From Candidatus Gastranaerophilales bacterium (GTDB lineage Bacteria > Cyanobacteriota > Vampirovibrionia > Gastranaerophilales > Gastranaerophilaceae), in NCBI GenBank assembly GCA_944325895.1, contig CALVCA010000004.1, positions 1-64,000 of the forward strand: a DNA stretch of 64,000 nt, written 5' to 3'. The notes below the pieces were generated by a model. It searched no databases. It was not told where the DNA came from and saw only the letters and a list, made by a program, of their open reading frames with translations. The position numbers and the translations under genes were made by a program. Shown piece by piece: positions 54,654-58,139 of this stretch (its first letter is position 1; every line of letters begins with the position of its first letter).

Positions 54654-54981
54654 ATATAAAATAAACGGCAACAATTAAAAAAACAAATCCTACCAAATAA
54701 TTCCATTTGAATTGCTCTTTTAAATAAAGAACAGAAAATCCGCTGAAAACTATCAAGGTAATAACTTCCTGTATTACTTTCAACTGTGCTGCATTGTATA
54801 CTTCATAGCCTATTCTGTTTGCCGGCACCTGAAAACAGTATTCAAAAAATGCTATTCCCCAGCTGACAAGTATTACCGTTATTAAAGCTGTATTTCTAAA
54901 CCTTAAGTGCCCGTACCATGCAAATGTCATAAAAATATTTGATATTGTCAGCATTAAAATCGGGGCTATATACTTTATCAT
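54640..54981 (-). CDS. DMT-like small membrane protein (DUF486)
   Basis: 113 residues with four predicted membrane helices. 'MTFAWYGHLRF' (~18-28), 'SWGIAFFEYCFQVPANRIGY' (~40-59) and 'AAQLKVIQEVITLIVFSGFSVLYLKE' (~65-90) are hallmarks of the DUF486 family, a relative of small multidrug-resistance-type transporters whose substrate is unknown. Its ATG overlaps the stop of the upstream 121-residue gene by one base. Confidence 0.88.
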   Translation of the reverse strand: MIKYIAPILMLTISNIFMTFAWYGHLRFRNTALITVILVSWGIAFFEYCFQVPANRIGYEVYNAAQLKVIQEVITLIVFSGFSVLYLKEQFKWNYLVGFVFLIVAVYFIFKKW

Positions 54982-55346
54982 TATTTTACCAAACCTTCTG
55001 TTTCGTTATACATTACCATGTAAAAATCGGGGCTTGTCATATTCGGGTTTTTTTGCATGAATTTTTTAACATCAAATTTTTCCAAATATTTATTTAATTT
55101 ATCTATAACCTTTTTATTACCTTCGTGTTCGTTTTTTAAGTTATTTATATATGAATTTGTCATCATTAAAACTTCTTCTTCCGTTAATAGAGGAAGTCCG
55201 CCTATTTTTACTTCATCTTGTTCTTCTTGTTCCAAATATTTCTTTTCTTCCTGTTTTTGTTCTTTTGGTTGTTGATGTTTGTTGCTATCTGATGAAGTTG
55301 ATGATTCTATTCGTTTATTAAAAGGATTATTTACAGAATTAAACAT
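54981..55346 (-). CDS. Charged coiled-coil protein, unknown
   Basis: 121 residues. The N-terminal half is Ser/Gln/Glu-rich and probably disordered (MFNSVNNPFNKRIESSTSSD, 'KEQKQEEKKYLEQEEQDE'); the C-terminal half is helical ('LTEEEVLMMTNSYINNLKNEHEGNKKVIDKLNKYLEKFD'). AGGAGG lies before the ATG. It is the last gene before the proposed origin, on the strand that a leftward fork would read co-directionally. Confidence 0.6.
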   Translation of the reverse strand: MFNSVNNPFNKRIESSTSSDSNKHQQPKEQKQEEKKYLEQEEQDEVKIGGLPLLTEEEVLMMTNSYINNLKNEHEGNKKVIDKLNKYLEKFDVKKFMQKNPNMTSPDFYMVMYNETEGLVK

Positions 55347-55379
55347 TTATACCTCCTTTTTTTATTACGGATTTTTTGT

Positions 55380-55734
55380 TTTTTGTTTGAAGTTTTAAAA
55401 TAAAAAAATCATCCTATTGGAGTAGTCCTGTAGAAAAACATGTGTTTTTCAGTAGAAAAGTCATGAGTTTTCTACAATTTTGTTTCTTTTCTTTTTTATC
55501 CCTTTTTTTCTACATTTTTTTCTTTTTGTTTTCTACAATTTTTTATACTTTATTTTTGTTGTTTTTACTGCTTAAAATGATGTTTTCTACAAATTTTTCT
55601 GACTTATTATTACTGTTAATTAAATATATTTTATATTTTTATATTTAATATAAAATAAGATTTTATTGTTTCTTTACATATATTTATTTTAAAAAGTTTT
55701 TATTATAAAATTTTACATAAAGGAGTAAGGTGAG
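55380..55734. other. oriC: Probable chromosomal replication origin (oriC)
   Basis: A gene-free 390-bp region before dnaN. TTTTCTACA occurs exactly at 55468-55476, 55506-55514, 55529-55537 and 55583-55591 on +, and at 55429-55437 inverted; an 8/9 match (TTTTCTACT, inverted) is at 55451-55459. That is six boxes in 163 bp, differing from the cyanobacterial DnaA box TTTTCCACA by one base. A ~110-bp tract of almost pure A+T (55603-55720) follows and could be the unwinding element. Origin next to dnaN matches Synechococcus elongatus. dnaA is not in the window. Confidence 0.7.
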
Positions 55735-56856
55735 ATGAAATTCATTGTAAAAAAAGAAGATTTGTTTGACGGGATAAAAATAGTTGAAAGAGCAACAAGT
55801 ATGAAAGCTTTGCAGCCTGTTTTTATGAATATATTAATAGAAACAGTTGATAAAGCGACAGTCAGATTAGTTGCAACCGATTTAGATTTAACGGTTACAG
55901 CACTTGTCAATGCTCAGGTTGAAGAAGAAGGCAGTATAACATTACCTTCTAAAACATTAAACGAAATTGTTTCTAAGCTTGGTAATAAATTGATTACTTT
56001 TGAAATGCCTCAAGGACTTACAACTGTAAATATAACCTGCCAAAATTCAAAATTTGATATAATTGGTATTTCAGCAACAGAATTTCCTCCTGAAGTTTAC
56101 AATGTGGATTTTGATAATGATGAATGTTTTGAAATTGAATTAAAGCCGTTTACAAAAGCCGTAAGACAAGCAGGATTTGCAGCAGCAGGGTATGAAACAA
56201 GCAATCTTTTATCAGGAATTGTTTGCGATATTTCAGATTCTGTTTTGGAAATTGCTTCAACAGACGGAAATAGGCTTGCAAGAGAAAGAGAACAAATTAA
56301 CAACAAAGAAAAAAAATCAACACAGCTTATTATCCCTGCAAAAGCTTTAAATGAATTTATAAAACTAAGTGCATATATTGATGAAGAAAGTGTAAAGATT
56401 TATACTGAAAAATCAAAAATAATAATAAAATCAGAAAGAACAACTACAATTTCAAGATTATTGGAAGGACAATTCCCTAAGTATAATCAATTAATACCTA
56501 CAGAAAGTCCAAAGGAAGCTATTGTAAATGTTTCTCAGTTGATTTCGGCTCTTGAAAGAGTTTCTATTATGGTTAACGAAAAAACCAGTATTGTAAAAAT
56601 GAATTTTGCAGATAATGAATTAACTCTAAATGCAGATACTCCGGATTCAGGTAAATCAGAAGAAAAAATAGATATACAATACACATCAGAACCTTTATTG
56701 ATTGCTTTTAATTATAAATATGTATTGGAAGCATTGAAAAATATATCAAGCGATGAAGTTAAAATAGGATTAAATACGGCATTATCCGCAACTGTTTTGA
56801 AACCGAACAGCGATGAAGATTTTGTATGCTTGATTATGCCTGTTCAGATAAGATAA
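55735..56856 (+). CDS. dnaN: DNA polymerase III beta subunit (sliding clamp)
   Basis: 373 residues, the usual length of three similar domains. N-terminal 'MKFIVKKEDLFDGIKIVERATSMKALQPVFMNILIE' (~1-36), 'TLPSKTLNEIVSKL', 'QAGFAAAGYETSNLLSGIVCDISDSVLEIASTDGNRLARER' in domain 2, and the C-terminal 'VCLIMPVQIR' that forms the end of the protein-binding cleft (M-P-V/M-R-x). The clamp ring tethers the polymerase. AAGGAG lies upstream of the ATG. Gene sits immediately right of the proposed oriC and points away from it. Confidence 0.97.
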   Translation: MKFIVKKEDLFDGIKIVERATSMKALQPVFMNILIETVDKATVRLVATDLDLTVTALVNAQVEEEGSITLPSKTLNEIVSKLGNKLITFEMPQGLTTVNITCQNSKFDIIGISATEFPPEVYNVDFDNDECFEIELKPFTKAVRQAGFAAAGYETSNLLSGIVCDISDSVLEIASTDGNRLAREREQINNKEKKSTQLIIPAKALNEFIKLSAYIDEESVKIYTEKSKIIIKSERTTTISRLLEGQFPKYNQLIPTESPKEAIVNVSQLISALERVSIMVNEKTSIVKMNFADNELTLNADTPDSGKSEEKIDIQYTSEPLLIAFNYKYVLEALKNISSDEVKIGLNTALSATVLKPNSDEDFVCLIMPVQIR

Positions 56857-56897
56857 AGTTAACTTGCACAAAGGTGCATGTTTTTATATCCAATTAT

Positions 56898-56932
56898 TTG
56901 AGCCTTTTGAAAAAAAGGCTCTTTTTTTGTGC
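56898..56932 (+). terminator. Terminator of dnaN
   Basis: GAGCCTTTT-gaa-AAAAAGGCTC then seven T. Confidence 0.85.
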
Positions 56933-57028
56933 TACGCAGCGGATTTGCACAAGAACGGAGCGAAGCGAGTTTGTCCCGGCTCGCAAAACCATGGTTTGCG
57001 AGCCGAGCAAAATCCGAGACACGTAGCC
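56933..57028. repeat. GC-rich nested palindrome
   Basis: A ~95-bp element much richer in G+C than its surroundings. Outer arms GCTACG / CGTAGC and GGATTTGC / GCAAAATCC enclose an inner near-perfect palindrome, GGCTCGCAAAACCA / TGGTTTGCGAGCC. It looks like a REP/MITE-type insertion in the dnaN 3' region. Confidence 0.6.
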
Positions 57029-57087
57029 ATGTTTGACAGCATTCGCATCACTTTATATGTCATTGCGAGGTGCCAAAGGCAGCATGC

Positions 57088-57118
57088 CGTCATTCTGAGC
57101 ACTAGCGAAGAATCTCAT
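57088..57118. repeat. REP-like half copy
   Basis: CGTCATTCTGAGCACTAGCG AAGAATCTC: left half of the 5490-type element, 11 bp before the end of prepilin D. Confidence 0.6.
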
Positions 57119-57128
57119 TGTAAAGATA

Positions 57129-58139
57129 CTAATCCCCAATGCAAAACACCAGATTATTAGCGTAGCGACCTCCTTCGCCCCATTCAGTATTGTTTGGTGC
57201 GAAGATACGATAGAAGGCGTTGTATCTGCTAACCTCCTCTCCTGACCATATAGAGAAAGTGGAGCCTGAACTAGCGGTGAGTCCTAACTCCGCTACTTTG
57301 TCATAATCCAGAGTCAAACCAGATTCGTATCCGCTAATTCCTGATGTATTGTATACATAGTTAGCAATATCATTTAATTGTGCTTGTGTTGGCATCTTAC
57401 TTACTCCGCCACAAGACTTTACAGCTCCGCCCCAGTAATCATCGTCACCGTCTCTACAATTTTTTATTCCTAATTGAGATTGTCTTGCAATACATTCATT
57501 ATGTGTCAATGGAGTTGTAGTAATGGGAGCAGTAAAACATGTTCCATTTATTTCAAAAGCACAGTTGCTTCCGCCAAGAGAGAGAACATTAATACTTCTC
57601 AAATCTTTTTGTTGAGTGTTAGGAGTTTTGAATCCTGTGGTATCATAAAGAATAGCTAAACAGGAAGTGCCGTTGAATTGATTAGTAAAAGGCTGTTCTT
57701 TACACTCAGGGTTATATGCAATAAGTCCTGTAGTACCGTTAGCGAATTGCACACCGATAGTTTCGGTATCCCAATCCTCTTGACCAAAGTTTTTAGCATT
57801 TTTAATTTTAGACATATCGACTTCTTCATTTTCAGCGCCCCAAAAGACTTTATCTTCAAAACAAGATAGTATATCGTCATTAGCACAAACCTTAGTAATC
57901 TTAAAATATTTACCTAAAGCGGAAACGAAATCAGCGGTATTGGAATAGCCTGCTAAAACCTGTTGAGTGTTCATGGTTTTTAAAGCTTCTTCTAACTTTC
58001 TTTCAAAAACAGATGCGGAAGTATTCCAGGCTTTGTTCTGGTAGTTAGCGACAAGAGTAGGGATAGTCAAAGCAGCAACGATGCCGATAATGCCGAGAGT
58101 AATCAAGACCTCAGCTAAGGTAAAACCGAATTTTTTCAT
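57129..58139 (-). CDS. Type IV prepilin-like protein D
   Basis: 336 residues: MKKFG, then FTLAEVLITLGIIGIVAALT and IPTLVANYQNK. Prepilin peptidase should cut after Gly5, leaving Phe1 and Glu5. The long soluble domain has ten or more Cys and a C-terminal 'YRIFAPNNTEWGEGGRYANNLVFCIGD'. GAGGGAAA precedes the ATG. Unlike A, B and C there is no G tract or leader ORF. Single gene on its own strand, divergent from the XRE regulator. No assembly ATPase, PilC or prepilin peptidase lies in the window. Confidence 0.85.
   Translation of the reverse strand: MKKFGFTLAEVLITLGIIGIVAALTIPTLVANYQNKAWNTSASVFERKLEEALKTMNTQQVLAGYSNTADFVSALGKYFKITKVCANDDILSCFEDKVFWGAENEEVDMSKIKNAKNFGQEDWDTETIGVQFANGTTGLIAYNPECKEQPFTNQFNGTSCLAILYDTTGFKTPNTQQKDLRSINVLSLGGSNCAFEINGTCFTAPITTTPLTHNECIARQSQLGIKNCRDGDDDYWGGAVKSCGGVSKMPTQAQLNDIANYVYNTSGISGYESGLTLDYDKVAELGLTASSGSTFSIWSGEEVSRYNAFYRIFAPNNTEWGEGGRYANNLVFCIGD

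Follow-up and report, generated by a model that had tools for sequence, protein, structure and literature searches.

Does the AT-rich intergenic DNA upstream of dnaN in the draft genome of a Candidatus Gastranaerophilales bacterium (1,686,038 bp, 47 contigs) act as the chromosomal replication origin, and, if so, what does it mean that its repeated 9-mer differs by one base from the DnaA box of cyanobacteria? Gastranaerophilales are nonphotosynthetic gut Cyanobacteriota, and DnaA and the DnaA box rank among the most conserved bacterial protein-DNA pairs. Our analysis started from a 64-kb stretch of this genome, here called the window, and was extended to the whole draft genome and to related lineages. 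We consider it highly probable (roughly 0.8) that positions 55347 to 55734 are an oriC in which the initiator-box code has changed, with T in place of C at position 6 of the box and Lys or Arg in place of Asp at position 433 of DnaA.

The candidate oriC fills the intergenic region between a minus-strand open reading frame (54981 to 55346) and dnaN, and six sites adjoining dnaN are packed into 163 bp of it (55429 to 55591). Five are exact copies of TTTTCTACA and are predicted DnaA boxes, one on the minus strand (55429 to 55437) and four on the plus strand (55468 to 55476, 55506 to 55514, 55529 to 55537, and 55583 to 55591); the last of these adjoins the unwinding element, and its distance to the DnaA-trios is constant in relatives. 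The sixth, a near box on the minus strand (55451 to 55459), reads TTTTCTACT, and its T at position 9 is a frequent variant in the lineage. The preliminary description of this locus had reported five exact copies and one near copy of a 9-mer followed by an AT tract and dnaN, all of which we recovered at the same positions. Its claim that composition does not explain the clustering also held up: the G+C content of 55380 to 55734 is 18.6%, versus 33.3% for the window, and 20,000 first-order Markov shuffles of this AT-rich region never produced more than two copies. Among all 9-mers of the window, TTTTCTACA is the sole one to reach five copies per 200 bp. It is not generally frequent in the genome, because the 1.69-Mb draft contains 62 exact copies, compared with 82 of a reversed control pattern. 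No second TTTTCTACA cluster was found elsewhere in the draft genome, nor was any other tandem box cluster of the TTTTCTACA or TTTTCCACA type.

To the right of the last box, a 12-nt spacer (55592 to 55603, plus strand) leads to the DnaA-trios TTA TTA TTA CTG TTA (55604 to 55618, plus strand; 3'-AAT AAT AAT GAC AAT-5' on the other strand), with which a predicted AT-rich DNA unwinding element (55604 to 55720) begins. DnaA-trios have been described as 3'-[A/G]AT-5' repeats with spacer lengths peaking at 10 to 13 nt, and a basal unwinding system comprises a box, a spacer of at most 16 nt, and at least three trios (PMC8287927); the spacer here has 12 nt, and five trios follow it. The spacer is equally long in 36 of 39 origins of relatives, in which at least three trios start exactly 12 nt past the rightmost box (0.94 expected from shuffles), and the triplets of relatives switch between TTA and CTA while their phase is maintained. 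We hypothesize that the C-terminal domain IV of DnaA would contact the TTTTCTACA boxes, that a DnaA oligomer would be guided from the last box across the spacer onto the trios, and that the AT-rich DNA beside dnaN would then be opened, the way the basal unwinding system works in Bacillus and other bacteria; DnaA binding and unwinding at this origin are thus predictions from sequence. One relative locus (L047, positions 1 to 356) carries an unusually dense origin with eight TTTTCTACA boxes of mixed orientation in about 190 bp, and recognizable trios were not seen there after the rightmost plus-strand box.

The dnaN gene itself (55735 to 56856, plus strand) encodes a DNA polymerase III beta clamp of 373 amino acids with 71 to 93% identity to the products of 55 loci, the majority labeled Candidatus Gastranaerophilales. 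Past it lie a short G+C-richer stretch that resembles a degraded repeat (56890 to 57110; gcggatttgcacaagaacggagcgaagcgag) and, directly downstream on the opposite strand, a gene whose type IV pilin-like product has a prepilin N terminus (57129 to 58139, minus strand; FTLAEVLITLGIIGIVAALTIPTL).

Strand composition points to the same place. On contig C4 (130,718 bp), which carries the cluster, the cumulative G-C minimum falls at 53 to 56 kb and the curve rises thereafter to the end, with a skew of −0.067 to the left of the minimum and +0.081 to the right. Skew was computed on this contig and on stretches of two relatives, the genome consisting of 47 unordered contigs; skew to the right of the origin was higher in 20 of 23 named relatives, and in one relative (G053) a second, slightly lower minimum lies 176 kb from its cluster. 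The dnaA gene is located on contig C22, where a ruvA-like gene comes next, and not beside the candidate oriC. An oriC next to dnaN is usual in cyanobacteria, and Synechococcus elongatus has dnaA elsewhere (PMC3480399, PMC4674748), as the preliminary description had noted for the dnaN-side origins of Synechococcus. The box cluster adjoins or is near dnaN in most relatives. Five loci (L018, L023, L026, L030, and L032) had been taken for box-less exceptions, having no box within 500 bp of dnaN, a view that we discarded when TTTTCTACA clusters were found 0.5 to 5.2 kb upstream; the origin-dnaN link has therefore loosened in some genera. Another five (L045, L046, L048, L049, and L050) have no box cluster in the stretch examined around dnaN, and in all five of them the DnaA recognition helix has HPT instead of HTT. 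Three more (L029, L036, and L037) were left unjudged because of short length or truncation. As skew, conserved trios, and dnaN-side location agree, besides the boxes, we conclude that 55347 to 55734 is very probably the chromosomal replication origin of this bacterium, in line with the proposal first made for it; both the skew minimum and the genome-wide box count, which had been suggested as checks, single out this locus. Its architecture is ordinary.

The preliminary description had remarked that a lineage-wide change of the DnaA box would be new, and our survey of 146 Cyanobacteriota genomes, 65 from the Gastranaerophilales family and 78 from outside this family and its sister family, reveals such a change. 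Of the 65 family genomes, 52 contain closely spaced tandem pairs of TTTTCTACA, versus 3 of the 78 others, whereas tandem pairs of TTTTCCACA, the box that photosynthetic cyanobacteria use, occur in 2 of 65 versus 38 of 78; the T6 pair pattern in reversed form, used as a control, was found in 4 family genomes. Four of the 13 remaining family genomes (G050, G068, G157, and G159) have wider-spaced TTTTCTACA clusters at dnaN. Across 39 origin regions we counted 197 exact copies of TTTTCTACA, against 0.49 expected, and zero copies of TTTTCCACA. Among single-base variants of the box in these origins, position 6 is C in none and A in two, only position 9 varies freely (T in 24, C in 19), and position 5 varies a little. 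Where the canonical patterns (TTWTNCACA and TTTTCCACA) have C at position 6, the family thus has T in 197 copies and C in none, and the T6 variant box is lineage-wide in Gastranaerophilales.

A matching change is present in the initiator, as comparison of DnaA domain IV revealed. Asp at the position equivalent to Escherichia coli 433 is nearly universal in DnaA. Domain IV of the source DnaA reads SFESIAEYFNKKHTTMLYSYEKI at the recognition region. The family yielded 49 distinct domain IV sequences, every one of which has Lys or Arg as residue 433; Asp occupies this position in each photosynthetic cyanobacterium and each other outgroup that we read. (We rejected an NSHPV motif that the automatic tally had listed, because it came from an antisense open reading frame of locus L072 and not from DnaA.) The published base-contact positions of DnaA are 399, 423, 432 to 435, and 438 to 439 (PMC5043019), and 433 is the only one among these at which T6 and C6 users consistently differ. 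Family members and TTTTCCACA users have in common R399, a basic residue at 432, H434, and Y439 (nearly all), and position 435 is T in most. An AlphaFold2 model of domain IV (pLDDT 94.8) has the helix-turn-helix DnaA fold and matches structures of DNA-bound DnaA domain IV, namely, PDB 1j1v (Z 18.1, root mean square deviation [rmsd] 1.1, 93 residues aligned) and 3pvp (Z 19.1, rmsd 0.9, 95 residues aligned); its recognition helix starts at the His following K433. With a basic side chain at 433, DnaA could serve as hydrogen-bond donor to O4 of T6 or to N7 of the partner adenine, whereas Asp433 would instead favor an amino group, for example, on cytosine. The contact of D433 has been assigned to base pair 7, which is adjacent to pair 6 (PMC8235120), so that we infer the K433-T6 link from neighborhood and comparison.

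The sister family (f2) offers a second view of the same position. Eleven genomes of this family have NRTHSS or KRTHSS and hence T433, in a DnaA with a normal turn before the recognition helix and with P423 present. An exact-repeat search did not detect a box in this family; it came out by anchoring on trios, since the regions upstream of dnaN terminate in CTA/TTA triplets. At nine loci, the word ahead of the trios is TTACTTACA, TTTCTTACA, TTACTTTCA, TTATTTACA, TTACTGACA, or TTTCTTTCA, so that, as read by eye, position 6 is T at eight of them, and CTTACA occurs 13 times in these regions compared with 2.7 expected. The f2 box therefore appears to be TT[A/T]CTTACA, of the T6 type, a lead whose consensus is still unsettled. 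Alongside the CTTACA boxes and trios, the loci upstream of dnaN in this family (L098, L102, L105, and L204 to L209) contain a conserved AAATACATGTAAG and TGACAG/CTGTCA elements, CTGTCA being found 9 times versus 0.5 expected. We are inclined to believe that the DnaA-box code was rewritten in both Gastranaerophilales and the sister family, with loss of Asp433 (to Lys or Arg in the one and Thr in the other) paired with the change from C6 to T6 (TTTTCTACA and TT[A/T]CTTACA), and that residue 433 may be the determinant of position 6, the residue-box association having only one or two independent evolutionary changes behind it.

The atomic part of this reading, and that part only, has a competitor that we regard as rather unlikely though worth weighing, namely, that other changes in DnaA, not 433, read the changed box. 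The turn before the recognition helix is one residue shorter in all family DnaAs (FNKKH versus FGGKDH), and P423 is replaced in most of them, both changes accompanying the one at residue 433. However, genus g13 retains P423 and still has TTTTCTACA; in family f3, one genome (G041) has D433 together with a short turn, and what few boxes there are nearby have C6, which means that the short turn is not sufficient; and the sister family has T6 boxes despite its normal turn and P423, sharing with Gastranaerophilales the loss of Asp433. A distinctly improbable alternative is that the locus is an oriC whose C-to-T change at position 6 reflects AT-mutational drift, with DnaA specificity unchanged and tolerant there. 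The genome is AT rich (33% G+C), and the cyanobacterial box is one base away, but C5 and C8 of the box are retained, the 197 boxes stand against zero C6 copies, and a recognition-helix residue changed within the same lineage; moreover, the E. coli consensus TTWTNCACA accepts any base at position 5 and not at position 6 (PMC5043019). Least credible of all is the view that the cluster is bound by another protein, such as a regulator of dnaN, with the origin elsewhere: a regulator could well sit upstream of dnaN, but the constant 12-nt distance to the DnaA-trios, the skew minimum at the cluster, the lack in the source genome of further tandem clusters of either box, and the persistence of the cluster 0.5 to 5.2 kb from dnaN in L018, L026, L030, and L032 all speak against it.

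We thus return to an origin with an altered initiator-box code. The boxes listed in the literature consulted depart from TTATCCACA at position 2, 3, or 5, to which the 12-mer of Thermotoga is to be added (PMC4285127, PMC10225481). A full-text literature search for TTTTCTACA together with DnaA, with subscription journals and preprints outside its scope, gave matches that concern other subjects judging by title and abstract, and no literature was found on Gastranaerophilales replication origins or Melainabacteria DnaA boxes. The T6 box with its matching initiator residue is a new version of the DnaA-box code, although an earlier report is possible. With position 6 of the box cleanly switched in nature and a matching switch in the recognition helix, one can test directly which residue is responsible for which base, and the case illustrates the way in which an essential initiator can coevolve with its full set of boxes. 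In practical terms, TTTTCTACA is the box needed for locating origins in this large uncultured gut group, origins that default searches with TTATCCACA or TTTTCCACA would miss.

Compared with known systems, the locus resembles the cyanobacterial origins with TTTTCCACA boxes (S. elongatus, Cyanothece 51142, and Anabaena 7120) in its dnaN-side site, box cluster, and AT stretch, and resembles that of S. elongatus also in that dnaA is not adjacent (PMC3480399, PMC4674748). It differs in the box, TTTTCTACA and TTTTCCACA being identical at 8 of 9 positions with T throughout at position 6 here, and in DnaA, in which residue 433 is Lys or Arg rather than Asp and the turn is one residue shorter. With the basal unwinding system it shares the box, 12-nt spacer, and phased trios, whereas the box here is TTTTCTACA and the trios are mostly 3'-AAT-5', with some 3'-GAT-5' (PMC8287927). 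In the DnaA of Thermotoga maritima (PDB 2z4r), D433 is likewise absent (FNRSHPVV), and its box, AAACCTACCACC, is divergent too (PMC10225481), but this is a 12-mer whose alignment to a 9-mer is ambiguous, and its position 6 is not equated with certainty; equating the CTAC of Thermotoga with the CTAC here, which we considered, is unsafe, since Thermotoga CCAC can align to the canonical core. A further parallel is the Epsilonproteobacteria, an entire class with shifted boxes (TTCAC core) and recognition-helix changes; there, however, position 5 changed and the D433-H434 dyad was kept, while here position 6 changed and D433 was lost (PMC5043019).
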